DNA of 42,299 bases, taken from a bacterium. GTDB lineage: Bacteria > Bacillota > Clostridia > Lachnospirales > Lachnospiraceae. A model generated the notes under the pieces. It made no database searches. It saw only the letters and a program-made list of their open reading frames with translations, and was not told the DNA's origin. A program made the translations under genes and the position numbers. Numbering within the stretch: position 1 is the first letter of the stretch; each line of letters starts with the position of its first letter. Where the stretch lies: NCBI GenBank assembly GCA_023664305.1, contig JAMPFT010000001.1, forward strand, positions 1 to 42,299. The letters are read 5' to 3'. Below, piece by piece: positions 236 through 42,116 of the stretch.

Positions 236-1153
236 TCACCCGTCCATGGCCCGGCAGAACCGCCCCGGACTGACCTGTACCGCCAGCCCCTCCACACAGA
301 GTCTGACCAACAGCATGGCCGCCTCTTTTTCGCCGCAGTCCGGCAGCCCCTCCCGAATCTGCCCTACGGTTCTGGGAGTGACATCCAGCGCGTCGTACAC
401 CGTCCGAAGCCTCTCTTTGCCTGCGCCAAGCCTCTCCATCCCTGTATCTCTCGTCTCCGGCTCCTCTTTTCCTTTCCCCCGCCCGCCGAACAGAAGATAT
501 CTTTTCCCGGCAATTTCCCGCAATTCCTCCAAAAATTCCTCTTCGTCCGCCAAAACGCCCGCTCCTGTCTTCAACAGTCTGTTGCAGCCTGCGCTGAGAC
601 TGTCCGTCATCCTGCCGGGTACGGCAAAAACCTCCCTTCCCTGTTCCAGCGCCATATCTACCGTGATCAGCGTCCCGCTTTTCTGCCTGGCTTCTACCAC
701 AACCACCGCGTCCGCCAGTCCGCTGACAATCCGGTTTCTGGGCGGAAAATGTCCCGGTCTGGCGGGAGTGCCGGGCGGATATTCCGACAAAATTCCGCCC
801 GCCTGCTTCAGCCTTTCAAACAGTTCCCTGTTCTGCGCCGGATAACAGACGTCCACACCGCTTCCCAAAACGGCAAAAGAGCTGCCTCCTGCTTCCAGCG
901 CCGCAGACTGCGCAATTCCGTCGATCCCCCGGGCCATACCGCTGATGACCTGTACGCCGTTTCTGCCCATCAGTCCTCCCAGTCTTGCCGCCACATGTTT
1001 TCCGTACTCCGAGCATTCCCTGGCGCCGATAATGGCCACCGATACCTTGTCCTCTCCCGGCAGTTCTCCTTCGTAATACAGAATTTTTGGGGGATCCGGA
1101 ATCTCCCGTAATCTATCCGGATAACCCGGATCCTCCCTGCACACACTCTTCAT
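236..1153 (-). CDS. dprA: DNA-processing protein DprA/Smf, short form
   Basis: DprA binds single-stranded DNA entering the cell and loads RecA during natural transformation. The 305-aa product carries the Rossmann-like core: VAIIGAREC near residue 39, SGMARGIDG near 71, a LGSGVDVCYP segment, FPPRNRIVSGLADAVVVVEA and the SGTLITVDMALEQGREVFAVPG block. A C-terminal winged-helix-like segment follows at about 240-300. The ATG is preceded by AAGGAG at good spacing. The protein starts right at the equivalent of the linker after the SAM-like N-terminal domain that longer DprA proteins have, and an in-frame stop lies about 20 codons upstream, so that domain is absent. The gene follows comM in the same direction, but 342 bp of tandem repeats separate them. 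Confidence 0.93.
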   Translation of the reverse strand: MKSVCREDPGYPDRLREIPDPPKILYYEGELPGEDKVSVAIIGARECSEYGKHVAARLGGLMGRNGVQVISGMARGIDGIAQSAALEAGGSSFAVLGSGVDVCYPAQNRELFERLKQAGGILSEYPPGTPARPGHFPPRNRIVSGLADAVVVVEARQKSGTLITVDMALEQGREVFAVPGRMTDSLSAGCNRLLKTGAGVLADEEEFLEELREIAGKRYLLFGGRGKGKEEPETRDTGMERLGAGKERLRTVYDALDVTPRTVGQIREGLPDCGEKEAAMLLVRLCVEGLAVQVSPGRFCRAMDG

Positions 1154-5395: not shown

Positions 5396-6577
5396 TCATG
5401 TCAGCAAAAACTGTGCCATCACATAGTTGGCCAGATCCAGTCCCTTTTCCGTCAACGCCAGTCTCTCTTTCGGTCCTGTCTCTTTCAACAGTCCGTCCCG
5501 TTTGTTTTTTTCGACAATCTTCCCGTAAATCTCCCAAAGAGTACAGCCAAACTTCTTCGCAAACTCTCCGTAAGCTATGCCCTCCGTAAGCCTCAGTCCC
5601 AGAAACAGAAATTCCTCCATCTGCTCCTCCCTGCTCAGCCGTTGTATCTCTTCCCGGCATCCGAGAGGATCCTGCAGGTAGGCCTTCAGGCTGTCCCCGT
5701 TCCGAAACCGCGTCTCCCCCATCAGGGACGCCGCCCCGACGCCGAAGCCCATGTACTCCCTCCGCGTCCAGTATCCGCAGTTATGTCGGCATTCAAAGCC
5801 GGGCTTCGCATAATTGGAAATCTCATACCGCCTGTAGCCTGCCCTGCTTAAGACTGCAGCTGTCTCGTGATACATCAACCTGTCCGTCTCCTCCTCCGGC
5901 AGCTTTAGCTCTCCCCGTCCGGCCATCTCAAAAAAGGGAGTCCCTTCCTCCAGAATCAGGCTGTAAGCCGAAATGTGAGTCGGCTGAGGCGCAAGTCCCA
6001 GCACGGCGTCCAGCGTCCGCCGCCAGCTCTCCGGCGTCTGTCCCGGCAGCCCGCTCATCACGTCCACATTGATATTGTCAAAACCTGCCGCTACGGCAGC
6101 CCGGTAAGTCTCCCGAAATTCCTCCGCCGTATGAATCCTTCCCAACCGCTTCAGTTCTTCTTCCTCCGCGCTCTGCAGGCCGATGCTGAGACGGTTGACC
6201 CCGGCTTGCCGATACGTTTTAAGCTTCCTCCCATCCGCCGTGCCGGGATTTACCTCTATCGTGATCTCCGCATCCTGCTCTAACCGATAGCATTTCCTTA
6301 CGGTTTCCAAAAGCGCCGTCAACTGCTCCGGAGCCACGACGGAAGGCGTCCCCCCTCCGATAAAGACGGAGACCACCCTGTGGTCTCCGCATTCTCCTGC
6401 CCTCTCTTCCGTCTCCTGCCGCAGCGCCCGCAGATAAGCGCTTTTTGTCTCCTCATCCCCCGGCCCGGACAGGAAATCGCAATAAAGGCATTTCCTCGCG
6501 CAGAAAGGAATATGAAAATATAATTCCAGCGGAGGACGCTTTTCCAACGCCGCTCTGCTCACCCGTAAATCCTCCAT
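5396..6577 (-). CDS. hemW: radical SAM heme chaperone HemW
   Basis: HemW is a radical SAM protein related to coproporphyrinogen III dehydrogenase HemN; members of this branch bind heme and are thought to deliver it rather than to oxidise coproporphyrinogen. The 393-aa product has FHIPFCARKCLYCDF (the CxxxCxxC cluster motif) near residue 21, the GGGTPS SAM-binding motif, EVNPGT, RLSIGLQSAEEEELKRLGR and DVMSGLPGQT, followed by a C-terminal winged-helix HemN_C domain. The length fits HemW. GGAAGG precedes the ATG, which lies 18 bp after the lepA stop, so the two are co-transcribed as in other Firmicutes. Confidence 0.93.
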   Translation of the reverse strand: MEDLRVSRAALEKRPPLELYFHIPFCARKCLYCDFLSGPGDEETKSAYLRALRQETEERAGECGDHRVVSVFIGGGTPSVVAPEQLTALLETVRKCYRLEQDAEITIEVNPGTADGRKLKTYRQAGVNRLSIGLQSAEEEELKRLGRIHTAEEFRETYRAAVAAGFDNINVDVMSGLPGQTPESWRRTLDAVLGLAPQPTHISAYSLILEEGTPFFEMAGRGELKLPEEETDRLMYHETAAVLSRAGYRRYEISNYAKPGFECRHNCGYWTRREYMGFGVGAASLMGETRFRNGDSLKAYLQDPLGCREEIQRLSREEQMEEFLFLGLRLTEGIAYGEFAKKFGCTLWEIYGKIVEKNKRDGLLKETGPKERLALTEKGLDLANYVMAQFLLT

Positions 6578-6595
6578 TTCCGACTTTCCTTCCCG

Positions 6596-8410
6596 TCAGC
6601 GGTCGTCCAGCTTCAACACGCTCATAAAAGCCTTCTGCGGAATCTCCACGTTCCCGATCTGCCGCATCCGCTTCTTTCCTTCCTTCTGCTTTTCCAGAAG
6701 CTTCTTCTTACGGGTGATGTCGCCGCCGTAACACTTTGCCAACACGTCCTTGCGCATGGCCTTCACCGTCTCCCGGGCGATGATTTTTCCGCCCACCGCC
6801 GCCTGGATCGGGATTTCAAACAAGTGCCTTGGAATCTCATCTTTCAGCTTCTCGCACATCCTCCTGCCCCGCTCATAGGCGGAATCCCCGTGTACGATAA
6901 AGGACAGGGCGTCCACCTCCTCCCGATTGATCAGAATATCCAGCTTGACCAGCTTGGACGGCTCATAGCCCTTCAGGTCGTAGTCGAAGGAAGCGTATCC
7001 TCTGGAACGGGACTTCAACGCGTCAAAAAAGTCGTAAATAATCTCATTCAACGGCAGCTCATATTTTAACAGCGCCCTGGAGCTCTCGATATACTCCATC
7101 CCCAGATACCGGCCCCGCCGCTCCTGACAGAGCTCCATGATCGGGCCGATAAACTCCGTCGTCACCATGATTTCCGCGCTGACGATCGGCTCCTCCATAT
7201 GCTCGATCGTCGAAGGATCCGGCAAATTCGTCGGATTGGTCAGCTCAGTAACCTCCCCGTTGGTCTGATACACCTTATAGACCACCCCCGGCGCGGTCGT
7301 CACCAGGTCCAGATTGTATTCCCGCTCCAGACGCTCCTGGATAATCTCCAGATGCAGCAGCCCCAGGAAACCGCAGCGGAAACCGAAGCCCAAAGCCACG
7401 GAGGTCTCCGGCTCATAGTTCAGGGAGGCGTCGTTAAGCTGCAGCTTCTCCAGCGCGTCCCGCAGATCCGGATACTTTGCTCCGTCCGCCGGGTACATGC
7501 CGCAGTACACCATGGACTGCACCTTCTTATAACCCGGCAGCGGCTCCGCGCAGGGATGATTCGCATCCGTCACCGTATCGCCCACCGCCGTATCCCTCAC
7601 GTTCTTGATGGACGCGGTAATGTAGCCCACCATGCCCGCGGAAAGCTCTTCGCATGGAATAAACTGTCCCGCGCCGAAATATCCTACCTCTACGACCTCT
7701 TCCTTCGCCCCCGTGGCCATCATGCGGATCACGGTGCCCTTCTTCACGGTTCCCTCCATGATCCGGCAGAAAATAATAACCCCCTTGTAGGAATCATACA
7801 GAGAATCAAAGATCAGCGCCCGCAGCGGCGCTTCCGGATCCCCCTTCGGCGACGGAATCTTCTTCACCACCTGCTCCAGCACTTCCTCGATACCGATTCC
7901 GTTCTTCGCCGAGATTAACGGCGCATCCTGCGCCTCGATCCCGATCACATCCTCGATCTCCTCGATCACCCTCTGCGGCTCCGCACTGGGCAGATCAATC
8001 TTGTTAATCACAGGGAAAACATCCAGATTGTGATCCAGCGCCAGATAGACGTTGGCAAGCGTCTGGGCCTCGATCCCCTGGGCGGCGTCCACCACCAGGA
8101 TCGCCCCGTCGCAGGCCGCCAGAGACCGGCTGACCTCATAATTAAAGTCCACATGTCCCGGCGTATCGATCAGGTTAAAAATATACTCTTCCCCGTCCCG
8201 GGCCTTATAGACCGTGCGGACAGCCTGAGCCTTGATCGTAATTCCCCGCTCCCTCTCCAGCTCCATGTTATCCAAAACCTGATTCTGCATCTCCCTGCTG
8301 GTCAGAAGACCGGTGTGCTCTATAATGCGGTCCGCCAGGGTGGATTTCCCGTGATCGATATGCGCTACAATACAAAAGTTGCGGATTTTGCTCTGCTCTT
8401 TCAATGTCAT
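6596..8410 (-). CDS. lepA: elongation factor 4, LepA
   Basis: LepA (EF-4) is a ribosome-bound translational GTPase that affects initiation and back-translocation. The 604-aa product has G1 [13 protein letters not shown], the G2 segment [13 protein letters not shown]3 [17 protein letters not shown]4 NKIDLPSA and G5 SAKNGIG, then domains II and III, the domain V-like part, and the LepA-specific C-terminal domain including [20 protein letters not shown]. The ATG at 8410 was preferred over the one five codons upstream because GAGGAAA lies at good spacing before it and the length matches the family. It normally follows spoIIP directly, but here the helicase cassette intervenes and lepA has its own promoter. 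Confidence 0.97.
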
Positions 8411-8554
8411 GAACCGTTTCCTCATTCCTGCGTTATTCCGACGTTTTGGGCAGCCTGTCTGCGCCTCCCTTCAAAAGCGCATAATCCGAATATAATCCCT
8501 GATTTTGCGCAAATACGGGGTACAGGCTTTATCCAGCCGCCTTTTGCAGCTATC

Positions 8555-8583
8555 ATTGTAGCAGAAATTTACAGTCTTGTCTA
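8555..8583 (-). promoter_or_regulatory. sigma-A promoter for lepA-hemW
   Basis: Minus-strand TAGACA (8583-8578), 17 bp, then TACAAT (8560-8555). The box lies in the 270-bp gap between the winged-helix gene and lepA and gives lepA independent transcription. The rest of the gap shows no gene. Confidence 0.7.
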
Positions 8584-8682
8584 TATCCGCGGAAAGCAGG
8601 AAATCTATTATCCTTCAAAATCCATTTGTCACCTCGCCAATCCTTTCCAATTGTGGCAAAGATGGCAGGAATCCGTTGTTTT

Positions 8683-8937
8683 TCATTCTCTGAAATATAC
8701 TTTCTTTTTTGTTTTTCCAGCACTTTTCAGAAAATTCAATTTTTCTGCCCTTGCCAACAATCGACTTGCCGTTTTTACTTCAACTTCCAATAATTTTGCC
8801 GCCGTAGGACTATTTATTTCTTTGTTCGCATCCAAATAACGCAAAACAATCTGCATCCTCGCCTTCTCCAATTCGGACATTGATTCGGACATTTCAATGT
8901 TTAAAGCGCCATTTATAGCCTCATTTGAAGCCATCAT
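8683..8937 (-). CDS. small winged-helix protein coupled to the DUF4011 helicase
   Basis: The 84-aa product is not assigned to a named family. Residues about 25-80 form a winged-helix pattern, with SPTAAKLLEVEVKTASRLLA as the likely recognition-helix segment and a basic strand near KTKKKVY. Similar small modules occur at the C-terminus of some bacterial ATPase-associated proteins. Its ATG overlaps the helicase stop codon as ATGA, which implies translational coupling and a related job: a DNA-binding accessory subunit or an autoregulator are both possible. Like the helicase, it is AT-richer than lepA and spoIIP. Confidence 0.8.
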   Translation of the reverse strand: MMASNEAINGALNIEMSESMSELEKARMQIVLRYLDANKEINSPTAAKLLEVEVKTASRLLARAEKLNFLKSAGKTKKKVYFRE

Positions 8938-11900
8938 TTCAAATATATCGTTTCGTCCTCAACAACCACCGAATCAGCCAGCAGCTGCAGCGCAATATCA
9001 AGGTATTCACTGCTTGTTTTTGTAAGGCGTAATACTCCGCATTGAAGCGCAAGGGATCGGTACAAGCCATTCTTATTCGCCTTCACATTTTGTCTGAGTA
9101 TTTCCAGCATCCCGGCAGCCAACTCTTCCGGAGCAATCTGCCTGATATCGCGGACAATATCTCCCGGGCCCCGAAAAACAATTTCTCTCGGTTCTTTTAA
9201 ATACAGGAATCCGTTCCGCCGGATGATTCCACACAGCTGATACCCGTACATCTGCTGTTCATACTCCTGCTGAACGAAGCTTGTGACCTTTTCCCGTCCA
9301 AAATACCCGACAATCCGCTTTAAAAGCAGTTCTTCCGAAAGCGGAGCCTCGATTTCCAGAATTGCCTTGACCATTCCCTTTAAATCCTGAAAATACTGCC
9401 AGTTCAGTTGAACAATATTCGCCGCTTTATAGCGTGGAAATTCAAAATGCTTCTCTTCCGCCGCAATTTCAAAAGGTTCCGCCTCCACGATTTCGCTCGT
9501 CTCCGTTTTTTCCTTTACCGGATTTTGCACTGCTTTTGCTGCCGCTTCCAAAAGACGACGCTGCTCGACAGCCTTACTGCGAAACCAGTCGGTGGACCAG
9601 ATACGGTAAAACCTCCACCCCATGCGTTCCAATACTTCCTGCCGCAAACGATCCCGGTCGCGGGCGTTCTTAGAGGAATGATAGGTAGCGCCGTCACATT
9701 CGATAGCAAGCACATAGTCTGAACTGTTGGGAATTTTCAGTCCAAGATCAATTCTGAACCCGGAACAACCGATCTGCGTATCGACCGAAAATCCTTTTGA
9801 TCGCAAAAACTCGCAGACCTCCAATTCAAAATCCGAGTCAAACTGCTCGTAAGGACTGACTGACATCGCGCGTTCCAGCGCAATATTGCCGTTCTCTGCA
9901 AAATCAAGATACTCGCGCAAAAGCGTAACTCCCAGCGCTGACGTTCGCTTCAAATCAATATCCGTACAATGCATGGAGGATACAAGCTGTATATTATATT
10001 TTGCCCGGGTAACTGCGACATTCAGCCGTCTCTCGCCTCCAACTCGGTTCAGCGGGCCAAAGTTATGCAGCAGACGACCCTGCGCGTCTTTCCCGTATGC
10101 AACGCTGAAAATAATCGTATCCCGTTCGTCTCCCTGAACGGTTTCCAGATTTTTAATAAAAAACGGCTCCTCTCCCTGTCGTTTAAAGAAATATTCTGTT
10201 TCAGGCATACTTTGACGGCGCTTTGACAGCAATTTATCGATCAGATCCTGCTGCGCGACACTGAACGCAACCACCCCAAGACTACGGTTTGGATAATTCT
10301 TAATATGTTGATAAATCAAATCAACGATATATTCCGCTTCTTTTCGATTCGTATGTGATTTTCGGTCAAAAATACCTTCCACATGATAGTAATCCACGCC
10401 AATCCCGACCGAGTCAGCTCTGGAAGAAGGGAATGTAACAAGATCGTTATCGTAAAAATTCTTATTTGAGAAAACAATCAACTGCTCATAGCGGCTGCGG
10501 TAATGCCAGCGCAGGCGGAGCTGCTGCATGGAGGTAGAGCACAGATCCAAAATAGATTCAAAATCCGTTATATCTCCGGTTTCCTCATCGTTGTCTTCCG
10601 CTTCAACCGTTGCGTTAAAGAAATTGCTGGGCGGCATTTGCCTGGAATCTCCTACCACAATCAACTGCTTAGCGCGATAAATTGCACCGATGGCGTCCTG
10701 CGGAAAAATCTGCGATGCCTCATCAAATACAACAACATCAAAACGAATGGAACCGGATGTAAGAAAGGTACTGACACTGAGCGGCGACATTAAAAAACAG
10801 GGCTTTATGCGCTGCACGAGTTCGCCGGTTTCCGCTAAAAGGGAGCGAATGCTTTTCTGTTTCCTCTTTTTTTCGCCCTCGCGAAGCAAAACAGCCAAAG
10901 CGCTGCCGGAAGCGATCATGTCAAGAGACGGCCGTTCAGCGGAAAGTACAGCTTTGATTTTTGCCTTATTGATTTCAAATTGCTCCATATCCTTCTCGGC
11001 AAATATACGGACTACTTTGTCCTGAGCAATTCGATTATACTTCGAGAGCGCGGGCGTGACAGACAAAATCGATTCAATCCACTGATTATAAAACTGCTTT
11101 TTGAAAGCGCCCGGAATATATTTTGCTTCAACGCAACGTTGAATAACCGTGTTGACAAAAGGCATCATCTGATAATCATTCAACCCGGAAAGGAGACTGC
11201 TGAAATATTGCCAATGCTCCAGCTGGTCGAATCCGTTTAAGCACTTTTTGCACCGCGTCAATGTCAACAGCAGACCGCTTCTCTTTATATTCCATATCGT
11301 ACTGTCAAAACAATCCGTAAGATGATCTATCGTCTCGCCGGTACATTTCTCCAGACACTCGTCCAACCGAGCCGCATAGTCCTCAAACATTGTCTTTTCG
11401 CCTGCAAGATCGTGACCCTCCGCCAATCTGCCAAAAGAATTTCCCTCTGCAAAAACAGCACGGATGATTTCCATCTGCCTGGATACATAAGACCAGTCCG
11501 TTTGAAGCCCCCGATAAGCCGAGCCAAATATTTCCCGAAAAGAGACTTCCTCTTCCTGATATTGAATCATTCTCTGCTGACAGTCCGAAAGCTGCTTCGT
11601 CAACTCAACGGCTTTCGCGTAAGAAGGCTTTTTCCCGTCTTTCCTGCACAATTGCAGAGAGCGGATCATCTGCCGATACTCCGAACTGAAAATCCTGGAA
11701 AATGCGCCGTTAAATACTTTTGTCAGCCTTTTGTAACAGTCTGCGCCGTCAAGCTTATAGACATCCTCGTCAAACACATCCGCAAGGGAAAGCTGCCGGG
11801 ACAAAATATCAGAGCTTTGATCCCGTAGCCTTTCCCACAAAGAATCCGCCCTTTCAAAAGGTTCTCTCTGAAGCAGGGACGGCGTAACCGCCCGATCTGC

Positions 11901-13550
11901 ATCTGCGGCTTGAAAGAAATTCCGCCATGCGCACGCTCCTACAATACTGTCGCAGGAAATGCCGTATCGTTCCGCAATTTCTTTTAAAGTCGGAATCAAT
12001 TCCTGCAGGAGCTGCACAACAGAGGCAAGCCCGCTTTTTACCGTCATTCTTTCCTGATAAGATTTATCCGGATTGATGTATCCGTACCATAAATTTTTCC
12101 TGTAGTCATAACCAATGGAGGGAATATAATCCACATACTGCTCCAAAAGAGAAACGACTTCTGTCAAAAAGGTCTCTCCCTTACTATCCAGCTGAGGCAC
12201 TGTCCATTCCACATCCGGGACATTTCGCAGCGCGGCAAATTCCTCATATAGCTGATACAGGCTTTTCTCGATCACCGGCCGATGTTTATGAAGTTCTGAC
12301 GCATAAGCGTCCAACTGCTTTTGCGCCTTTTCTTTAATACTGATTTCGCGATCCGCTTTTGCGGATACGGCGCTTCCCGGATTTCTCAGCGTATGACAAA
12401 TATCTGCGATAACTGCTTTTTTGTTTGCCTTGTGACTGTGCAATTCCAGGCAAAATTCAGATAGCCCCGCCTGTTTCAGCTTATCATAAACAACATTCAA
12501 AGCCGCCAGCTTTTCTGATACGAACAGCACCTTTTTCCCGTCGCTTAGGCATTCCGCGATAATATTTGTAATCGTCTGGCTTTTTCCTGTTCCCGGAGGT
12601 CCCTGGAGGACAAAGCTTTTTCCCTGCTTTGCCATCTCAATCGCCTCAATCTGACTGGAATCCGCATCCACAACGCTGTGCAGCTCAATTAACGGATTCG
12701 TGACGGTAGTACCGTTGTCATCGGCCTCACATCCTGTCTGATGAATCGGTTCCCCCAAAAGCATACGGACATTTTGATTCGCAAGAATTGCTGCCGCATT
12801 ATCCTTCAGATCACGGTACATATTGATTTTCAGGAACGAAAAAATACCAAGCTTACATTCAGACGTTACATCCCACTGTAATTTCCTGACAATTCCTCTT
12901 ATTTTTTCCAGATAAGCGCTCAGCCCCTCCTCATTGTAATCCGGAAATTTTATTCCGTATTCTGCATCCAGCTTATAAGCAAACGTAGGATTGACTATGA
13001 TATCGTCTCCGGTTGATGTAATATAATACGGCGAAACAGACGACTCCTGCTCCAGATGAACCGGCGCAAGTAAAACAGGCGCTCGAAATACCTGTTTCGA
13101 GGAATCGCTTTCCTTCCAATGAATAAAGCCAAATGCCATATACGCGACATTAACACCTGTTTCCTCGATATATTCCCTGGCCTTCTTGTCTATATTTTTC
13201 ACTGCTGTCAGAGGATTCGCGGCAGAACTGTACAGCAAAATCTGATTTTGCCGCTTTATCCTGGAAGAATACTGTGCGAAGAAAACATCTCTTCCTTCAG
13301 AGGATTCCACAGGTTCATTTCCTTCCTGTTCACCGCCGATAACCGCCTCTACATCCTCTTCCTCATCCGCGATTTTCGGATCAAAAACCTCAAAAGCTGC
13401 AGCGCTGTCAACTTTATCAAATAAGACATCCGCCTCAGGCAATAAAACCTCAGCCGTTGTCGCTTTCGTATCCCGGAAGTTGATCAGATTATTTCTTTTC
13501 CCCATATCAAGGAGTAATTCTGCCCATTTATCCAGCTTTCTTTTATCCAT
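8934..13550 (-). CDS. DUF4011-type SF1 helicase with PD-(D/E)XK/Vsr-like nuclease domain
   Basis: This 1538-aa protein resembles the large DUF4011/DUF3320 helicases of bacterial accessory regions, some of which have been catalogued as candidate anti-phage genes. The DUF4011-like N-terminus has WAELLLDMGKRNNLINFRD near residue 8. Walker A GPPGTGKSQT is at 317-326, Walker B VVVFDEASQ near 939-947 and the SF1 motif VI VTRAK at 1180-1184, preceded by QGDERDTI. A nuclease-like domain follows with RID at 1266-1268, IECDG at 1283-1287 and RMGWRFYRIWSTDWF, typical of Vsr/MTES_1575-like folds. The last 150 residues resemble DUF3320. The long insert between Walker A and B is mostly helical. AGAGGA precedes the ATG. 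Its AT-rich bases contrast with both neighbours, suggesting acquisition. Antiviral function is inferred, not shown. Confidence 0.9.
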   Translation of the reverse strand: MDKRKLDKWAELLLDMGKRNNLINFRDTKATTAEVLLPEADVLFDKVDSAAAFEVFDPKIADEEEDVEAVIGGEQEGNEPVESSEGRDVFFAQYSSRIKRQNQILLYSSAANPLTAVKNIDKKAREYIEETGVNVAYMAFGFIHWKESDSSKQVFRAPVLLAPVHLEQESSVSPYYITSTGDDIIVNPTFAYKLDAEYGIKFPDYNEEGLSAYLEKIRGIVRKLQWDVTSECKLGIFSFLKINMYRDLKDNAAAILANQNVRMLLGEPIHQTGCEADDNGTTVTNPLIELHSVVDADSSQIEAIEMAKQGKSFVLQGPPGTGKSQTITNIIAECLSDGKKVLFVSEKLAALNVVYDKLKQAGLSEFCLELHSHKANKKAVIADICHTLRNPGSAVSAKADREISIKEKAQKQLDAYASELHKHRPVIEKSLYQLYEEFAALRNVPDVEWTVPQLDSKGETFLTEVVSLLEQYVDYIPSIGYDYRKNLWYGYINPDKSYQERMTVKSGLASVVQLLQELIPTLKEIAERYGISCDSIVGACAWRNFFQAADADRAVTPSLLQREPFERADSLWERLRDQSSDILSRQLSLADVFDEDVYKLDGADCYKRLTKVFNGAFSRIFSSEYRQMIRSLQLCRKDGKKPSYAKAVELTKQLSDCQQRMIQYQEEEVSFREIFGSAYRGLQTDWSYVSRQMEIIRAVFAEGNSFGRLAEGHDLAGEKTMFEDYAARLDECLEKCTGETIDHLTDCFDSTIWNIKRSGLLLTLTRCKKCLNGFDQLEHWQYFSSLLSGLNDYQMMPFVNTVIQRCVEAKYIPGAFKKQFYNQWIESILSVTPALSKYNRIAQDKVVRIFAEKDMEQFEINKAKIKAVLSAERPSLDMIASGSALAVLLREGEKKRKQKSIRSLLAETGELVQRIKPCFLMSPLSVSTFLTSGSIRFDVVVFDEASQIFPQDAIGAIYRAKQLIVVGDSRQMPPSNFFNATVEAEDNDEETGDITDFESILDLCSTSMQQLRLRWHYRSRYEQLIVFSNKNFYDNDLVTFPSSRADSVGIGVDYYHVEGIFDRKSHTNRKEAEYIVDLIYQHIKNYPNRSLGVVAFSVAQQDLIDKLLSKRRQSMPETEYFFKRQGEEPFFIKNLETVQGDERDTIIFSVAYGKDAQGRLLHNFGPLNRVGGERRLNVAVTRAKYNIQLVSSMHCTDIDLKRTSALGVTLLREYLDFAENGNIALERAMSVSPYEQFDSDFELEVCEFLRSKGFSVDTQIGCSGFRIDLGLKIPNSSDYVLAIECDGATYHSSKNARDRDRLRQEVLERMGWRFYRIWSTDWFRSKAVEQRRLLEAAAKAVQNPVKEKTETSEIVEAEPFEIAAEEKHFEFPRYKAANIVQLNWQYFQDLKGMVKAILEIEAPLSEELLLKRIVGYFGREKVTSFVQQEYEQQMYGYQLCGIIRRNGFLYLKEPREIVFRGPGDIVRDIRQIAPEELAAGMLEILRQNVKANKNGLYRSLALQCGVLRLTKTSSEYLDIALQLLADSVVVEDETIYLK

Positions 13551-13604
13551 AATCCGGTTCCTCTCTATATATTTAGCATTAGTAATAATATCAATATCAA
13601 ATAC

Positions 13605-13633
13605 AGTATATCATCCTCTCACCCCGGACGCAA
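13605..13633 (-). promoter_or_regulatory. candidate promoter for the helicase cassette
   Basis: Minus-strand TTGCGT (13633-13628), 17 bp, then TATACT (13610-13605), about 55 bp before the helicase ATG. The 109-bp gap after spoIIP is strikingly AT-rich and contains a direct TTGATAT repeat nearer the gene. Confidence 0.6.
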
Positions 13634-13659
13634 TACGATAATAATCAGTCGAAAATATT

Positions 13660-14946
13660 CTACTCCCCGCTCAGCACCAGATCCAGAATGTGAGCCAGCG
13701 GCTCGCAGGCGTTCATTGCCTCCTCCACCGTATTATTCTGCGCCCCCAGCTCGATCAGCAGATATTTATCCTTCAAATGCATATTATACCGGTATCCCTT
13801 CAGATATATTTTTCTGGTCAGTCCCGGATAGTATTCCGCCGCTTTCAGCTGCATCTGGAAGGAAAAAGCAAGATTGTTTTCCAGATTCTCATTGTACAGA
13901 TAGGCGATATTTCCTGTCTTTTTCGTTCTGGAGAGACCGTTGAAGAACATAAATCTGGCGGTAGGACGCCCGTCCAGATCCATGACAAGTCTGGTGTCCT
14001 CCGGCATCTCGTCTCTGTGCAGATCGATGACCACCTGGATAGAGGGATTTTCTTCCAGCACCCGGCTCACCCCCGGAAGGGCCCGGGAATAGGCGTCGTT
14101 CCGCGTCTGCGCGTCATATTCCGCCGTATGGTGCAATACGGTATAACCGTAGGTTTCCGTCAGGATCTGCGTCAGCCTGTCTCCAACCCCTACGATGGAA
14201 TCCGCCGGTTCCCCCTGCCGCGAATCGGCAAAGCTCTCCTGCGAATGAGTGTGAAAAATCAGGATCTGCGGCCCCGTCCCGTCCTTTTGCACCGTCATAT
14301 CCTTTTCCAGGAAGCTCTCCACATTCAGCTGATCGCTTCCCGCCATCGTGTTACTGTCTACTATGTAAAACTGTTTCAGCAGCGTCTCGTAATCCTGCAG
14401 CGCAGCGATATCTACCTCTTCCGTTTTTCCACGGGGCACAAAGGGCATCTGCCCTTCCTGTATCCGCAGCGCTTCGTTTTCCGCCTCAAACAGCTGGGTG
14501 AGCGTTTTTTCCCCTTCCGCCTGCGGATTTTCCCGTTCTTCTTCGGAATAATCCTGATCCGGGGAAGGACCCTCCTGCGCCTCCGCGAGAAGGATTTCCC
14601 GGAAAGAAATCTCCGTGTTTTGATCCTCTTCCCGCTTCTCCTTCGCCGCATATCCATAAAGCGGGAGCAGACTGTCTATCTGCTCCTGTATGATCCAGTA
14701 TGTGTCCTGCCGTTTTCCCTCCGTATAAGGAATACAAAGCATGTAGGAATCATAGATTCTGTCCGTCAGCACATCCGCCAGCTCCCGCAGCATAAAGCTT
14801 CGCAGACTTCTTTCCCCGGCTTCCTCCGCGGCGTCCGTGCTCCCGGTCCGCGGTCTGCCGATTATGCCCTGCAGCAGCAGAAGCAGCAGCACGGCGGCTC
14901 CCGCCGTCACGGCAAGCCTTCTTGCAGTGCGATTTAATTTTATCAC
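13660..14946 (-). CDS. spoIIP: stage II sporulation protein P
   Basis: SpoIIP is a membrane-anchored peptidoglycan amidase/endopeptidase that, with SpoIID and SpoIIM, thins septal peptidoglycan during engulfment of the forespore. The 428-aa product begins with a basic stretch and one membrane segment (LAVTAGAAVLLLLLLQG, about 11-27). A low-complexity acidic linker follows, then the catalytic SpoIIP domain from about 220 with ILIFHTHSQESF, VIDLHRDEMP and the C-terminal LIELGAQNNTVEEA zinc-site region. The start is GTG, preceded by GAGGAAG. It follows gpr by 48 bp in the usual gpr-spoIIP order; downstream, lepA is displaced by the helicase cassette. Confidence 0.95.
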   Translation of the reverse strand: MIKLNRTARRLAVTAGAAVLLLLLLQGIIGRPRTGSTDAAEEAGERSLRSFMLRELADVLTDRIYDSYMLCIPYTEGKRQDTYWIIQEQIDSLLPLYGYAAKEKREEDQNTEISFREILLAEAQEGPSPDQDYSEEERENPQAEGEKTLTQLFEAENEALRIQEGQMPFVPRGKTEEVDIAALQDYETLLKQFYIVDSNTMAGSDQLNVESFLEKDMTVQKDGTGPQILIFHTHSQESFADSRQGEPADSIVGVGDRLTQILTETYGYTVLHHTAEYDAQTRNDAYSRALPGVSRVLEENPSIQVVIDLHRDEMPEDTRLVMDLDGRPTARFMFFNGLSRTKKTGNIAYLYNENLENNLAFSFQMQLKAAEYYPGLTRKIYLKGYRYNMHLKDKYLLIELGAQNNTVEEAMNACEPLAHILDLVLSGE

Positions 14947-14994
14947 CGGCTACTTCCTCTCGCCGTCCTTCGTACCAATATATGTCTGTCCCGT

Positions 14995-15915
14995 CTATTC
15001 CATGCGCATTTCCATGGCGATGTTGATCCCCTCGGACACGGTAAAGCTGATTCTCTTGATCACCGCGTCGATATCCTTTCCCGTCATATACATATTGTTC
15101 AATTCAGGAAAAGGCGGCGTCTGTCTGCTCATCCATTTTACGGCGTCCAGACTCTCATCCTCTTCCAAAAGCTTCTCCATGGCGTCCATCACGATGGTCG
15201 CGGAATCCACTACCGTAGGAATCCCGATGGCAATCACGGGGATTCCCAGACTCTGTTTTGTCAGCGCGTCCCGGTGATTGCCCACGCCGGAGCCGGGCTG
15301 AATCCCGGTGTTGGTGATCTGGATCGTGCGGTTTAAGCGTCTGGTACTCCGGGCCGCCAGCGCGTCCACCACAATCAGCACATCCGGCGTCGTCTCCCGC
15401 ACTACGCCCTTCACGATCTCCGCCGTCTCCATCCCCGTCCTTGCCATCACCCCCGGCTCCAGGGCGCTCAATAAATTCATCTTGCTGCAATTATAGGCCG
15501 CCTTCCCGTACTCCTTTACGATATGGCGCGTAATAAACAGATTATCCACCGTCTGCGGCCCCAGGGCGTCCGCCGTAACCTCCCGGTTCCCCAGCCCCAC
15601 CACCAGAATATTCTGTTCCCGATCCTCCTGCGGCATGAGCTTCAGCAGTTCCTCCGCCAGGCACTTTGAGATTTCCCGATGATAATCCTCATCCGCGTCC
15701 ACCATGGCAGGCGCTTCCATGGTGACGTAAATCCCCATAGGCTTTCCCATGGCCTTCGCCGCATTTTTGGTATCTATTGTGACCTTTGTCACACGGACGT
15801 CTTCCTTTTCCCGGTAATATTCTTCCACTTGCACTCCCCGCAGCTCGCTGTCCGCATCGCTGATGCTCTCCCGCGCCTCCAGGGCCAAATCGGTTCTCAC
15901 CTGAAAACTACTCAT
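14995..15915 (-). CDS. gpr: germination protease GPR
   Basis: GPR is the A25-family protease that degrades small acid-soluble spore proteins at germination, freeing DNA and supplying amino acids. The 306-aa product shows VRTDLALEARE near the N-terminus, where family zymogens are processed, then VVGLGNREVTADALGPQTV near residue 127 and TPDVLIVVDALAARST near 185, the region carrying the proposed catalytic aspartates. GNHRDALT and the C-terminal SEGINIAMEMR complete the match. GGAGGCGG precedes the ATG. It is divergent from rpsT across a 190-bp gap and is expected to be forespore-specific (sigma-F/G); no convincing box was identified. Confidence 0.95.
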   Translation of the reverse strand: MSSFQVRTDLALEARESISDADSELRGVQVEEYYREKEDVRVTKVTIDTKNAAKAMGKPMGIYVTMEAPAMVDADEDYHREISKCLAEELLKLMPQEDREQNILVVGLGNREVTADALGPQTVDNLFITRHIVKEYGKAAYNCSKMNLLSALEPGVMARTGMETAEIVKGVVRETTPDVLIVVDALAARSTRRLNRTIQITNTGIQPGSGVGNHRDALTKQSLGIPVIAIGIPTVVDSATIVMDAMEKLLEEDESLDAVKWMSRQTPPFPELNNMYMTGKDIDAVIKRISFTVSEGINIAMEMRME

Positions 15916-15986
15916 CTTCCGCCTCCACGTTTCTCTCCTGTTCTGAATTTTTTTCTATTTTTTGCGGAAAAGCATGGAATTATGTA

Positions 15987-16015
15987 TTGACAAAGCGTCT
16001 TTTATTTACTAAACT
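15987..16015 (+). promoter_or_regulatory. promoter for rpsT
   Basis: A perfect TTGACA at 15987-15992 is followed after 17 bp by TAAACT at 16010-16015; a better-looking TACAAT at 16015-16020 is too far by itself. The leader to the rpsT start is about 85 nt. Confidence 0.65.
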
Positions 16016-31806: not shown

Positions 31807-33180
31807 ATGGGAAAAACAGGGCGTTCGGTAAAGCTTATGAAATCCGCAAAAAATCATCCTCTGCTTATCGGTACGGTAATCCTTACGCTCACCGGTCTCT
31901 TGAGCCGCATCATCGGTTTTTTTTACCGCATCTATCTGTCCCGCCTGTTCGGCGAGGAAGGCATGGGACTCTATCAGCTTTTAAATCCCGTGCTGTCCGT
32001 CTCCTTTTCCCTGACGGCGGCGGGATACCAGACTGCCATCTCGAAGCTGGTGGCGGAACAGTCCGCCATCCGGAAGGGCGCCTCCCTGCGCCCGATGGCC
32101 GCAGGTCTCAGCATCAGTCTGCCGCTGTCGCTTCTCTGCAACGCCGCAATCTACCTGTTCTCCGACACCATTGCCGCCGTGTTGCTGCAGGAGCCCCGCA
32201 CGGCCTATATGCTGCGCATCCTCTCCTTCTCCGTTCCCTTAAGCGCGGTACACGCCTGCGTTAACGGTTATTTTTACGGTATCAAAAAAGCCGGAATCCC
32301 CGCGGCCTCCCAGCTTTTGGAACAGATAACGCGGGTCGGCTGCGTCTATCTGGTTTCCGCGGGTTATTTTTCGTCGGGGAGCACTCCCCCGATCAGCGTG
32401 GCCGTTCTGGGCCTGACCGTAGGAGAATTTTTCTCCATGCTCTATTCCGCGGCGGTTGTATGGAAACAGGGACTCAGCATAAAACACTTTCCGGAGAGCC
32501 CGATCCGTCCTTCCTCCGGTTCAGGGCTTTACAGGGGACTTTTGGCCATGGCCGTTCCCCTGACCGCAAACCGCATCGTCCTCAATCTGCTGCAAAGCGT
32601 GGAATCCGTCTCCATCCCTTCCATGCTGCGGCTTCACGGCTATGACACCGTAACCTCCCTAAGCGTCTACGGCGTCCTCACCGGTATGGCTATGCCGTTT
32701 ATCTTCTTTCCTAACGCCCTGACCAGCTCCGTCGCCGTTCTTCTGCTGCCCGTCATCTCGGAAAACTATGCTCTGGGCAACTATAAGGCCGTCAGACAGG
32801 CCACCGTCAAAACCGTAAAATACTGCGGCCTTCTGGGGATCGGCTGTATGACCGGCTTCGTCGCTTTCGGGAACTGGGCGGGCACTGCTCTTTTCCACAG
32901 CCCTCTGGCCGGCTACTTTATCACTACTCTGGGCTTTATCTGTCCCTTCCTCTACCTGGACACCACCCTCTCCAGCATCCTCCAGGGACTGGGCCGGGCG
33001 GGCCGGATTTTTGCCATGAACGTGGTCTGCCTTTTGATCCGCCTGGGGTTTGTCTTTCTGGCCGTCCCGCGCTTTGGCATCGCCGGATACCTCTGGGGGC
33101 TCTTAGCCAGCCAGCTGACACTGGGCGTCCTCTACCTGATCTGTCTGGGCAGACTCCTGAAAAAAATGCCGGCTGCGTAA
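31807..33180 (+). CDS. SpoVB-like lipid/polysaccharide flippase (MATE/MOP superfamily)
   Basis: The 457-aa membrane protein has about 12-14 hydrophobic segments and the SpoVB-type N-terminus GTVILTLTGLLSRIIGFFYRIY with SRLFGEEGMGLYQLLNPVLS. SpoVB proteins are needed for spore cortex synthesis and belong to the same exporter group as MurJ and Wzx, which flip lipid-linked wall or polysaccharide precursors. Given the nearby sporulation genes, SpoVB is the best guess, but paralogous flippases look similar. The ATG at 31807 was chosen over the one ten codons later because GAAAG lies before it; the ribosome binding site is weak either way. Its stop lies inside a bidirectional terminator. Confidence 0.82.
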   Translation: MGKTGRSVKLMKSAKNHPLLIGTVILTLTGLLSRIIGFFYRIYLSRLFGEEGMGLYQLLNPVLSVSFSLTAAGYQTAISKLVAEQSAIRKGASLRPMAAGLSISLPLSLLCNAAIYLFSDTIAAVLLQEPRTAYMLRILSFSVPLSAVHACVNGYFYGIKKAGIPAASQLLEQITRVGCVYLVSAGYFSSGSTPPISVAVLGLTVGEFFSMLYSAAVVWKQGLSIKHFPESPIRPSSGSGLYRGLLAMAVPLTANRIVLNLLQSVESVSIPSMLRLHGYDTVTSLSVYGVLTGMAMPFIFFPNALTSSVAVLLLPVISENYALGNYKAVRQATVKTVKYCGLLGIGCMTGFVAFGNWAGTALFHSPLAGYFITTLGFICPFLYLDTTLSSILQGLGRAGRIFAMNVVCLLIRLGFVFLAVPRFGIAGYLWGLLASQLTLGVLYLICLGRLLKKMPAA

Positions 33181-33196
33181 GCAACCGACATTTTTT
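33161..33196. terminator. bidirectional intrinsic terminator
   Basis: AAAAAATG.CGG.TGC pairs with GCA.CCG.CATTTTTT around a GTAA loop, giving A-runs and T-runs on both sides. It ends the flippase gene (whose stop is inside the loop region) and the convergent nrdR. Confidence 0.9.
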
Positions 33197-33201
33197 AACC
33201 G

Positions 33202-33651
33202 CTATTTTAACATTTTTTTCAATTCGTCCATAAAAGTATTTACATCCTTGAACTCCCGGTAGACGGAGGCAAAACGGACATAGGCCACCGCGTCAAGATC
33301 CTTCAGCTTATTCATCAGCAGCTCTCCGATCACCTGGCTGGAGATTTCCTTCTCCTCCCTGTTTGTGATCTCGTTTTCCACCTCATCCACCAGTCCCGTG
33401 ATCTGCTGGGCGCTGACAGGCCGTTTATGGCACGCGCGCAGCACTCCCGCCTCGATCTTCGTCCGGTCGTACGCTTCCCTGTTGTTATCCTTTTTGATGA
33501 TAATCAGCGGAATCGTCTCCACCTTTTCGTAAGTGGTAAACCGCTTGCCGCACTCGTCGCACATCCGCCTGCGCCGGATGGAATTATTGTCTTCCGCCGG
33601 CCTGGAATCGATTACCCTCGTGTTTTCATGATTGCAGAAAGGACATTTCAT
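33202..33651 (-). CDS. nrdR: transcriptional repressor NrdR
   Basis: NrdR is the ATP/dATP-sensing repressor of ribonucleotide reductase genes. The 149-aa product has the zinc ribbon KCPFCNHENTRVIDSRP...CDECGKRF with CPFC and CDEC pairs, FTTYEKVETIPLIIIKKD, and the ATP-cone domain at about 48-138 with REAYDRTKIEAGVLRAC and VAYVRFASVYREFKDVNTF. Length is standard. GGAG precedes the ATG seven bases upstream. It converges on the flippase gene. Confidence 0.96.
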   Translation of the reverse strand: MKCPFCNHENTRVIDSRPAEDNNSIRRRRMCDECGKRFTTYEKVETIPLIIIKKDNNREAYDRTKIEAGVLRACHKRPVSAQQITGLVDEVENEITNREEKEISSQVIGELLMNKLKDLDAVAYVRFASVYREFKDVNTFMDELKKMLK

Positions 33652-33718
33652 AAGCATTCTCCTTTTTTAAGCAATTTTACTCAAAAAGTATTCATATTCA
33701 CCACTAAATTTAACATAT

Positions 33719-33952
33719 CTAACAATGAATGTCAACTAAAATGATATCCGGGCCAATCTGCTTGATATCCTTGAACGGGATGACAATATTCGGTTCGCAG
33801 TTTAAGAAGCTCAGCACCTTATTGCATCCCGGAACCATAATCTTACAGATGCATCCGCTGCAGGGATCAAACTCCAGGTCGCACACCCTGCCCAGCTTTT
33901 TGCAATCCTTCACATTGATGACATCCTTGCACTTCAGTTCCGAAAACAGCAC
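33719..33952 (-). CDS. ylmC: YlmC/YmxH family small PRC-barrel sporulation protein
   Basis: The 77-aa product matches the YlmC/YmxH family: SELKCKDVINVKDCKKLGRV at the N-terminus, then DLEFDPCSGCICKIMVPG and IVIPFKDIKQIGPDIILVD. These PRC-barrel-like proteins are widespread in spore formers and often lie beside sigma factor or cell-division genes; their biochemical role is unknown. This one is cysteine-rich (six). The start is GTG. It is divergent from sigG across 146 bp. Confidence 0.88.
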   Translation of the reverse strand: MLFSELKCKDVINVKDCKKLGRVCDLEFDPCSGCICKIMVPGCNKVLSFLNCEPNIVIPFKDIKQIGPDIILVDIHC

Positions 33953-34098
33953 AATAACACCCCGATTCTTTTTTTATATAGAATATGTCGCCCTGCGTTT
34001 TTGGAGAACATCCCGGAATAAATTTCTTTGTCAGGTACATACTACCACTATCGAATCAGGAAAGCAAAACGCGCGAACGCGCAGAAACGAGGGACGAC

Positions 34099-34878
34099 AT
34101 GGCACAGGGCAAAGTTGAAATCTGCGGGGTAAACACGTCCAGACTCCCGCTGCTCAAATCCGAGGAAAAGGAAACCTTATTCCGCAAAATCGAAGCCGGG
34201 GACGCCAAGGCCAGAGAGACTTATATCGAGGGAAATCTGCGGCTTGTCCTAAGCGTCATCAAACGCTTCTCTTCCAGCAGCGAAAATGTAGACGACCTGT
34301 TCCAGATCGGCTGCATCGGACTCATCAAGGCAATCGACAATTTTGATTCCTCTTTAAACGTAAAATTTTCCACCTACGCGGTTCCTATGATCATCGGCGA
34401 AATCCGCCGGTTCTTAAGAGACAACAGTCAGCTGCGGGTATCCCGTTCCCTGAAGGATACCGCCTACAAGGCCATCTATGCCCGGGAATCGCTGACAAGA
34501 AAAAATATGAAGGAACCCTCCATAGAGGAGATTGCCACGGAGATCGGCATCGCCAAAGAGGACATCGCCTACGCCTTGGACGCGATCCAGAATCCCATGA
34601 GCCTCTACGAGCCCATCTTCACCGACGGCGGAGACGCCCTCTACGTCATGGATCAGATCAGCGACAAGAAAAACCGGGAGGAGACCTGGGTCGAGCATCT
34701 CTCCTTAAGCGAGGCCATGAAAAAACTGAACCCCAGGGAGCACGAGATCATCTCCCTGCGGTTCTTCGAGGGGAAAACTCAGATGGAGGTCGCAGAGTCG
34801 ATCGGGATCTCCCAGGCCCAGGTTTCCCGGCTGGAGAAAAATGCCCTGCGGACAATGCGGACCTATCTGTCGGCGTGA
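34099..34878 (+). CDS. sigG: forespore sigma factor sigma-G
   Basis: Sigma-G directs late forespore transcription, including gpr and the small acid-soluble proteins. The 259-aa product carries the sigma-G hallmark N-terminus KVEICGVNTSRLPLL, region 2 NLRLVLSVIKRF and DDLFQIGCIGLIKAIDNFD, KFSTYAVPMIIGEIRRFLRD, region 3 segment FALD-like YALDAIQNPMSLYEPIF with DGGDALYVMDQISD, and region 4 EGKTQMEVAESIGISQAQVS. The ATG at 34099 follows GAGGG five bases upstream; the longer in-frame extension is unsupported. A forespore-type promoter was not convincingly identified in the leader. Confidence 0.96.
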   Translation: MAQGKVEICGVNTSRLPLLKSEEKETLFRKIEAGDAKARETYIEGNLRLVLSVIKRFSSSSENVDDLFQIGCIGLIKAIDNFDSSLNVKFSTYAVPMIIGEIRRFLRDNSQLRVSRSLKDTAYKAIYARESLTRKNMKEPSIEEIATEIGIAKEDIAYALDAIQNPMSLYEPIFTDGGDALYVMDQISDKKNREETWVEHLSLSEAMKKLNPREHEIISLRFFEGKTQMEVAESIGISQAQVSRLEKNALRTMRTYLSA

Positions 34879-40500: not shown

Positions 40501-41298
40501 TTATTCTTTGCAGACGTCACCGAAAAAATAATTTGCAAACGCCTCGTTCAACGCCCCATACGCGCCGCGGCTGACCGGTATTGACTCCCCGTTTTCCAGA
40601 ATGCATTCCTCGCGGGTAATCTTACTGACAAACTCCAGATTCACCACAACCGAACGGTTCGCCATGACAAATCTGGCGGCTGTATTGTCATAAGGCAAAC
40701 TACTTTCGTCCGGCAAATTTTGGTTCGCCTTATGACCTATCAGGCCGGGATCCAGTTTCGCCAGCATCTCCTTCAGGCTGGCCTTCCACTCATAAATCCC
40801 GTTTACCGTCTGCATCTGCAGATAATGTCCCTCTACCTTTACATACAGGATATCGCTCCTAAGAATCCGCAGATTCTCCCCGTGATACATCAGCGGGAAA
40901 TAATCCTCTCTGCTGTTCTCCAGCTTTTCCATACAGGCATCCATCGCCTTTGCCAGTTCGCTTTCCCCGACGGGCTTGATCAGATATCTGACCGCGCCGA
41001 TCTCATACCCTTCAAACACATACTCCTTATTCCCGGTGAGGAACACAATCTGCACCTTCCGATCCGACTTTCTGATCTCACGCGCCAGCTCCATACCGTT
41101 CTTATCCTTCAGGCAGACATCCAGAAAAACAATGTCAAACAGCTTCCGCCCGTCATAATGAAACAGGTATTCCTCCGCGCTTGCGGCAAACGTCGTGCTG
41201 ACCCGAATCTGCCTGGCCTTTCCCCACGCTTTTAGCAGCTTTCCGTAATAATCGTAAAGCTCTGTCTCATCCTCTACAACCGCCACTCTTATCAACAT
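40501..41298 (-). CDS. LytTR-family response regulator
   Basis: The 265-aa product has a receiver domain with IRVAVVEDETELYDYYGKLL, phosphoacceptor Asp in FDIVFLDVCLKDKNGMELA near residue 61 and Lys in GAVRYLIKPVGESEL. The C-terminal LytTR DNA-binding domain runs from about 140 to 250, with DILYVKVEGHYLQMQTVNG and MANRSVVVNLEFVSKI...LENGESIPVSR. Compared with typical LytTR proteins there is an extra loop of about 15-20 residues (with NQNLPDESSLPYDN) just before the NRSVVVNL strand. AAGGAA precedes the ATG. It likely pairs with the adjacent GHKL kinase to control the exporter pair. Confidence 0.92.
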   Translation of the reverse strand: MLIRVAVVEDETELYDYYGKLLKAWGKARQIRVSTTFAASAEEYLFHYDGRKLFDIVFLDVCLKDKNGMELAREIRKSDRKVQIVFLTGNKEYVFEGYEIGAVRYLIKPVGESELAKAMDACMEKLENSREDYFPLMYHGENLRILRSDILYVKVEGHYLQMQTVNGIYEWKASLKEMLAKLDPGLIGHKANQNLPDESSLPYDNTAARFVMANRSVVVNLEFVSKITREECILENGESIPVSRGAYGALNEAFANYFFGDVCKE

Positions 41299-41392
41299 AC
41301 TACGTTCCTTTTCCGGCCGCGCTCTATACGCAAGACAATATCTTACCTTTTCACTTCAGTACTTTTTCAAACAAGATAAGTTTAGGCGTCCC

Positions 41393-41971
41393 TTATTCTC
41401 TTTTCAATTTGTCATACAGTATTTCTTCTTCTCCCGTCGAAAGAGTTACCTTCTTCTTATACAGTAAGACCCAGGACGCCTGATTCCTTGTATAATCCAT
41501 TTTATCCTGCGGGAAAAATGAGCGGCAGAAATACCTTCCTTCCTTTCCGCTCCCTGCCAGAAACAAAAATATATTTTTCCCTTCTGTGTGGTTTTTCATA
41601 ATATAATCCGCTTTTATGACCGAATAAGCATTCTGTTTCCGGTTGTATTTAAAGATTGTATCATTGCTGTCAATCACGCTTTCCAAAAGCGGGAGCGTGT
41701 CTATCCTGTCTGCAATCTTGTAATACAGATCCGACGACTGGAGATGCTCTGCCGTTATCCGACGTTCTCTTATTGCATCAAATATTTTTCCCCTGTCATG
41801 TACCAGCTCCGGTCTGTCAGTCAGGTACTGAAGCCCCATTAAATGGAAACATTCTTTCCTGTCAAAATTTATCTGTAATGGGATAGATATATTTTTTCTT
41901 CCCAGTATCAAATGGTATTCCTTATCCAACAGTTTTGCGAAAGCCTCCACACAGTCATACACATTACGCAT
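41393..41971 (-). CDS. PBECR4-domain (barnase/EndoU/colicin/RelE-like) protein
   Basis: The 192-aa product resembles the PBECR4 family, grouped with small metal-independent nuclease-like domains found in phages and mobile elements. Matching features are EAFAKLLDKEYHLILGRK at the N-terminus, HLMGLQYLTDRPEL near 43, a FDAIRERRITAEHL segment, LPLLESVIDSNDTIFKYNRK near 95, IKADYIMKN and the family-typical CRSFFPQDKMDYTRNQ...VLLYKKKVTL near 150-180. Catalytic residues are not assigned and activity is unproven. GAGGT precedes the ATG. The gene is AT-richer than its neighbours. It lies 94 bp upstream of the LytTR regulator in the same direction and its start overlaps a small upstream ORF. Confidence 0.78.
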   Translation of the reverse strand: MRNVYDCVEAFAKLLDKEYHLILGRKNISIPLQINFDRKECFHLMGLQYLTDRPELVHDRGKIFDAIRERRITAEHLQSSDLYYKIADRIDTLPLLESVIDSNDTIFKYNRKQNAYSVIKADYIMKNHTEGKNIFLFLAGSGKEGRYFCRSFFPQDKMDYTRNQASWVLLYKKKVTLSTGEEEILYDKLKRE

Positions 41972-42116
41972 CAGACTTACCTCTTTCCCTCTTGAAACAG
42001 GAAAAGCCCTGCTTTCGCAGAGCTTTTCTGACGTTTTCTTTCAACTGCGAAGCAGTTTCTGCAGAGCAGTTCCTGCATACGCAGCCTAGCCAGAATGCGG
42101 TAAACGCCGAACCCAT
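41964..42116 (-). CDS. possible 50-aa protein overlapping the PBECR4 start
   Basis: An ATG at 42116 opens a 50-codon frame (start MGSAFTAFWLG, then CVCRNCS, then a basic SQLKENVRKALRKQ segment, ending GKSDA). It closes with TAA inside the first codons of the PBECR4 gene (overlap ATGCGTAA), which would allow translational coupling. The ribosome binding site is weak. A second overlapping frame is also open here, so coding is uncertain; the region also folds into hairpins (AACTGC-ttc-GCAGTT; GAAAAGC...GCTTTTC) and could instead be a structured leader. Confidence 0.35.
   Translation of the reverse strand: MGSAFTAFWLGCVCRNCSAETASQLKENVRKALRKQGFSCFKRERGKSDA

Follow-up and report, generated by a model that had tools for sequence, protein, structure and literature searches.

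Between spoIIP and lepA, the window (the whole stretch of 42,299 nucleotides that was analysed) carries a large helicase-nuclease gene followed by a small winged-helix gene. A preliminary description of this DNA had taken the pair for an acquired two-gene module with a role in defence or DNA processing. The locus thus raises the question whether the two genes belong together, and what the large protein does. According to the analysis reported here, the cassette probably consists of one horizontally acquired, solo candidate-defence helicase-nuclease and a gene fragment.

Genes and base composition of the cassette

Both reading frames were re-read from the sequence and were found as first described in position, size and location between spoIIP and lepA (Table 1). 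The stop of the helicase gene and the start of the 84-aa frame share the letters ATGA. In a check of the flanks by family models, the scores of GPR, LepA and HemW exceeded the NCBIfam cut-offs, and SpoIIP was above its Pfam cut-off and reached 120.8 against an NCBIfam cut-off of 123.15. The direct flanks of the helicase gene are core genes, and no known defence gene adjoins it.

Table 1 Features of the spoIIP-lepA region (nucleotide positions in the window) and of the helicase-nuclease protein (residues)
Feature	Position	Strand	Basis
lepA, downstream flank	6596-8425	-	TIGR01393 and Pfam
Native lepA promoter (TAGACA-17-TACAAT, extended -10)	8555-8583	-	Promoter scan; same motif in relatives' gaps
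Insertion, approximate extent	8590-13656	.	After spoIIP stop to before lepA promoter
Winged-helix ORF, 84 aa	8683-8937	-	ORF listing
Helicase-nuclease ORF, 1538 aa	8934-13550	-	ORF listing
spoIIP, upstream flank	13660-14946	-	PF07454
DUF4011	residues 13-194 of helicase		Pfam
UPF1-like SF1 helicase (AAA_11/AAA_12)	Walker A 317-324, Walker B 943-947		Pfam and motifs
Vsr-like REase MTES_1575	residues 1241-1336		Pfam, 122.9 bits (cut-off 38.2)
DUF3320 match	residues 1386-1427		Pfam, 24.1 bits, below the cut-off of 25

The GC content of the cassette was 0.435-0.476 (1-kb intervals starting at 8501 to 12501), whereas towards lepA (5501-8500) it was 0.556-0.578 and towards spoIIP (14001-16000) 0.547-0.558. 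GC3 values of 0.487 for the helicase gene and 0.369 for the 84-aa frame, against 0.609-0.757 for six nearby genes, agreed with this result. The cassette is thus AT-richer than either flank, as had been noticed before; further AT-rich patches of the window are located at 33001-34500 and 41001-42000. A promoter belonging to the cassette, which had also been proposed, could not be substantiated. A site before the helicase gene, ATGATA-18-TATTAT (9/12), is weak, and nine promoter-like sites were counted in the cassette versus a mean of 8.4 (sd 3.2) in shuffled sequences. The scans of the cassette for promoter-like and for terminator-like sites were both at chance level and were discarded as evidence.

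Insertion at the spoIIP-lepA junction

The comparison of the junction comprised 32 lepA loci in 31 same-genus genomes, the window's own among them; lepA fragments in six genomes (G001, G007, G021, G024, G027 and G033) were left out of this sample. In 19 of the 32 loci spoIIP is situated directly upstream of lepA, with 57-266 bp between the alignment ends. An insert between both genes was detected in three loci: the window, G019 and G014. For seven loci no spoIIP was found in the fetched upstream DNA (about 4.5-18 kb), and for the remaining three the contig ends less than 1.3 kb upstream, with no spoIIP match in that part. The junction is therefore tight in 19 of the 22 same-genus loci with both genes on one contig, and the earlier statement that spoIIP and lepA are normally adjacent is confirmed.

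The lepA promoter of the window, TAGACAAGACTGTAAATTTCTGCTACAAT, lies downstream of the 84-aa frame and is absent from the gap between spoIIP and the helicase gene; hence, the cassette was inserted after the stop of spoIIP and before the promoter of lepA. Using a pattern that was composed after the sequences had been seen, this promoter was recovered in 15 of the 19 tight gaps; two further gaps contain the -10 part alone, and two contain neither part. The ends of the insertion are inexact, as the gaps of the relatives could not be aligned at single-base level. No direct repeats were detected at these ends (longest shared word 7, in shuffled sequences 6-12), and no tRNA genes were found in the window. 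The insertion is real, and it left both core genes intact.

The other two inserts differ in content. That of G019 (2.27 kb) encodes an ABC-type ATPase of 572 aa with two ABC domains (L110:1783-3501). The insert of G014 (about 9 kb, L111:2016-10801) encodes Nmad2 and Nmad3 nucleotide-modification domains, furthermore a NUDIX/Sel1 protein, a GNAT protein, a streptomycin-adenylyltransferase-type gene and a GH20 glycosidase. In four loci without spoIIP beside lepA (L114, L115, L116 and L117), a similar ORF of about 416 aa, whose start is MLATLIPLFDEN-like or close to it, was seen upstream of lepA, directly so in three of the four. In this genus, the junction may serve accessory genes as a landing site, and the fact that the cassette sits cleanly between spoIIP and the promoter of lepA points to a site at which such genes are tolerated.

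Distribution of the helicase

Across 37 same-genus genomes, no close full-length copy of the helicase was found apart from the window's own. G002 has a relative with 32% identity and G025 has pieces with 36-40%; the remaining matches cover the motor only. With two candidates scored per genome, 385 order-level genomes, some of which also contribute to the 45 loci described below, yielded only three full-length matches with at least 50% identity, one of them with a stop. A scan of genome contigs identified 45 related helicase loci with 45-76% identity, mostly from Clostridia. Exceptions are Desulfovibrionaceae, one Spirochaetaceae MAG and two isolates of Sutterellaceae type, Mesosutterella and Dakarella. 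An open frame of at least 1480 aa is present in 36 of the 45 loci; in the remaining nine the frame is interrupted or shorter, or runs into a contig end. Interrupted helicase frames were seen in L089, L102, L107 and L108, as expected of an accessory gene that is gained and lost.

No matches to spoIIP, lepA or gpr were obtained in any of the 45 loci; thus, none of them shares the site of the window. In a quick helicase tree, constructed without a species-tree comparison, families and phyla are mixed, and Desulfovibrionaceae are nested among Clostridia. The acquired, accessory origin assumed in the preliminary description is therefore supported by the compositional shift, the empty sites in relatives and the scrambled tree.

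Relatives were also searched in mobile elements. The helicase is matched by 499 plasmid records; 26 of these cover at least 80% of the query, all with less than 60% identity. No viral carrier was found: six pattern matches in viral contigs included no confirmed relative, and two weak matches were obtained in phage records, one with 31% identity over 88% of the query.

Domains and model of the helicase-nuclease

The catalytic motifs were examined in an alignment of 37 full-length proteins, comprising those of the 36 loci with the long open frame and that of the window. Walker A (GPPGTGKS) and Walker B (DEASQ) are identical in all 37 proteins. The same was observed for the nuclease residues D (FRIDL) and E, C, D and G (IECDG), and the H of YHSS is conserved in 36 of 37. 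Hence, the catalytic motifs of the helicase are intact.

A model of residues 1205-1538, built from 32 sequences, had a mean pLDDT of 82.2 and a pTM of 0.53. Its sole PDB match at E <= 0.001 was the catalytic domain of the Vsr-like homing endonuclease I-Bth0305I (3r3p, E 8.9e-4), located in the nuclease part; a second match of this part was the Vsr-like 3hrl (E 0.02). By its secondary structure, the C-terminal stretch of ~165 residues in the model consists of two helix-helix-helix-strand-strand units, that is, winged helices, for which Foldseek returned weak matches to winged helices of cullin and cohesin (E 0.17 and above). The protein is thus predicted to carry its own DNA-binding tail, with the Vsr-like nuclease followed by two winged helices. 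In the Mesosutterella and Dakarella loci (L106 and L107) the match ends at residue 1343, and the winged-helix tail seems to be missing or replaced. For a model of the N-terminal DUF4011 part (pLDDT 75.2) no PDB match at E <= 0.001 was found.

Genes near related helicases and possible targets

The neighbours of the related helicases were compared with a control set. The neighbour set contained 137 ORFs of 120-1200 aa, at most two per side, from 43 of the 45 loci, with near-duplicate loci kept; the control set contained 139 ORFs from 20 stretches chosen by us. At E <= 1e-20, 83 PADLOC families had matches in the neighbour set versus 50 in the control set. Within the top 25 of each list, the neighbours' names include Gabija, type IV restriction, AriA and a type II methyltransferase, and those of the control are PD-T4-6, mad3, mad6, PDC-S02 and MkoA. 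The models mad3 and PD-T4-6 are housekeeping-like, and mad3 has four matches in either set. The Pfam domains Mrr_cat, ResIII, OLD-like TOPRIM and RE_NgoFVII occur in the neighbours' top 25, and none of them in the top 25 of the control. Ten hand-picked neighbours were additionally scanned one by one. L067 and L104 each have a Gabija pair, L097 has a type II methyltransferase and L077 a weak PDC-M30A match; four of the ten neighbours had no PADLOC match. The enrichment of defence genes is modest and not counted by locus, and should be read as suggestive and not as a statistic.

The helicase is probably antiviral. The anti-phage role suggested in the preliminary description gains support from the match to the PADLOC family PDC-S37 and remains a prediction. 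A Vsr-like nuclease with a motor would cut any foreign DNA, and the plasmid-borne relatives fit a competition between elements. It is therefore conceivable that plasmids or other mobile DNA are targeted and not phages; we consider this unlikely, and the NCBIfam names of the related Hhe and ProA models speak of antiphage proteins. Still less probable is that a housekeeping or DNA-repair type enzyme was moved into the junction by chance. The motor is of the UPF1/IGHMBP2 type, and extracts of a study on Pseudomonas aeruginosa describe a defence hotspot flanked by a conserved DUF4011 core gene (PMC10250203); both points would suit such an enzyme. Against it stand the patchy occurrence even within the genus, the mixing of phyla in the tree, the PADLOC candidate status and the restriction and Gabija genes near the relatives.

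Origin of the 84-aa reading frame

Positions 8893-8685 of the 84-aa frame align with the last 209 nt of a gene of another genus (L127 in G378) at 81.8% nucleotide identity. The matched stretch begins 41 bp past the helicase stop and reaches the end of the gene. The gene in G378 is intact and encodes 476 aa with SLFN_AlbA_2 and HATPase_c_4 domains (Pfam). Compared with such proteins, about 390 residues before the winged-helix tail are missing in the window; the AlbA_2 and ATPase domains are absent, and the C-terminal 60-84 residues alone remain.

Matches to the 84-aa frame were found in 13 of 392 order-level genomes, the window included. AlbA_2-type proteins ending in the winged-helix domain occur in G378 and G358, a more distant one in G425 and a broken one in G367. 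Fic-type proteins with this ending occur in G046, G267, G251 and G230 (one with a stop), and G131 has a Fic-like tail. Small or broken pieces were detected in G013 and G286, and a further match in G220. The assignment is backed by Pfam for G378 (SLFN_AlbA_2, HATPase_c_4) and G046 (Fic) and was made by resemblance for the other genomes. Since the AlbA_2 gene of G367 has lost its middle, decay of AlbA_2 genes recurs. Upstream of this broken gene, with one ORF between, an SF1 helicase ORF of 1077 aa with a motor-only match was seen (L167:4144-8984); this arrangement is a weak hint that AlbA_2 genes and SF1 helicases may share islands. The distant AlbA_2-type protein of G425 (L169:5921-7513) lies among ORFs that resemble type I restriction genes by eye.

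By tblastn, the 84-aa frame was matched in none of the 45 helicase loci, 39 of which have at least 300 bp downstream; the best hit had an E of 1.3 and lay on the opposite strand. The same settings recover relatives with 37-69% identity at E 2e-8 to 2e-31. The downstream neighbours of the helicase vary among the 45 loci, and by eye no shared partner was found among their downstream ORFs, in agreement with single-gene encoding. Most likely, judged by its homologues, the 84-aa frame is what remains of an SLFN_AlbA_2/HATPase_c_4 (or Fic-type) gene after truncation to its 3' end.

The module of the preliminary description, in which the winged-helix protein acts as a dedicated, translationally coupled DNA-binding or regulatory subunit, has to be judged against these results. 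The ATGA overlap, the open frame and the low dN/dS speak for it. For the comparison with G378, dN was 0.15 and dS 0.73 over 57 codons, and dN/dS was about 0.2 against three homologues over the same number of codons. Such a value points to past purifying selection, mostly before the truncation; it is uninformative on the time thereafter and leaves room for a present use. Neither the 84-aa frame nor AlbA_2 is matched in any helicase locus, the downstream genes change from locus to locus, and in most other genomes having it the sequence forms the C-terminus of an AlbA_2 or Fic-type protein. The helicase itself, according to the model, already has winged helices. A two-gene system of helicase and winged-helix protein is thus very unlikely and was rejected: the frame is most likely the end of an unrelated gene. 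The preliminary description had itself named a winged-helix gene that does not accompany the helicase as grounds to discard the pair, and this is what the 45 loci show. That the AlbA_2 tail was captured as a coupled regulator of the solo nuclease, a two-gene system forming by truncation at a recurrent landing site, is equally improbable.

Proposed mode of action

For a solo helicase-nuclease the following course is suggested. Foreign DNA or a replication intermediate would be bound by the winged helices and DUF4011; driven by ATP, the SF1 motor would travel along the bound DNA, and the Vsr-like domain would nick or cut it. With DNA binding, motor and nuclease combined in one chain, no separate DNA-binding partner would be needed. 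The helicase gene would have entered downstream of the spoIIP stop and ahead of the lepA promoter, and the ATGA overlap may be a by-product of its junction with a left-over SLFN_AlbA_2/HATPase_c_4 3' end. A gene fragment at an insertion junction can mimic a neat operon, with ATGA overlap and DNA-binding partner, and is a trap for the partner-based discovery of defence systems. The helicase represents a well conserved PDC-S37 candidate in a gut-type Clostridia lineage, and single-gene defences are easily tested in laboratory strains.

Comparison with known systems

In the literature search, PDC-S37 was not found by name, nor were DUF4011, helicase and Vsr found together; the source of the name ProA was not found either. 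Two NCBIfam models gave strong matches that stayed below their cut-offs. The ProA antiphage protein (NCBIfam NF058533) is matched at profile positions 357-1902 of 1903 by residues 3-1507 of the window helicase. The score of 1238.6 bits is below the cut-off of 1500, and the first ~356 positions of the model are absent in the window helicase. With Hhe (NCBIfam NF042953, PADLOC PDLC02194) it has the DUF4011, helicase and nuclease stretches in common. This match is piecewise, with 893.5 bits versus an NCBIfam cut-off of 2000, and the window helicase is about 250-370 residues shorter than the models.

A closer likeness was found to PDC-S37, whose status in phage defence is that of a candidate by name. 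Residues 3-1533 match positions 7-1542 of 1550 of the profile, and thus its full length, with 1451.6 bits and E 0, given without a PADLOC cut-off. PDC-S37 is a single-gene family, as is the window helicase, and no difference was seen. The extracts of a 2013 survey of HEPN proteins describe an arrangement in which an SF-I helicase is followed by a Vsr REase (MTES_1575) and then by two wHTH that overlap DUF3320, and propose that the wHTH tail serves to recognize invading DNA, with no modification enzyme involved (PMC3710099). Compared with the systems in these extracts, the window helicase has the same order of SF1 helicase, MTES_1575 Vsr REase and C-terminal wHTH/DUF3320; HEPN and transglutaminase domains were not matched in it by Pfam, so that it corresponds to a smaller core version. 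The window helicase is a further member of an already known candidate family, PDC-S37, with an architecture that was described in 2013.
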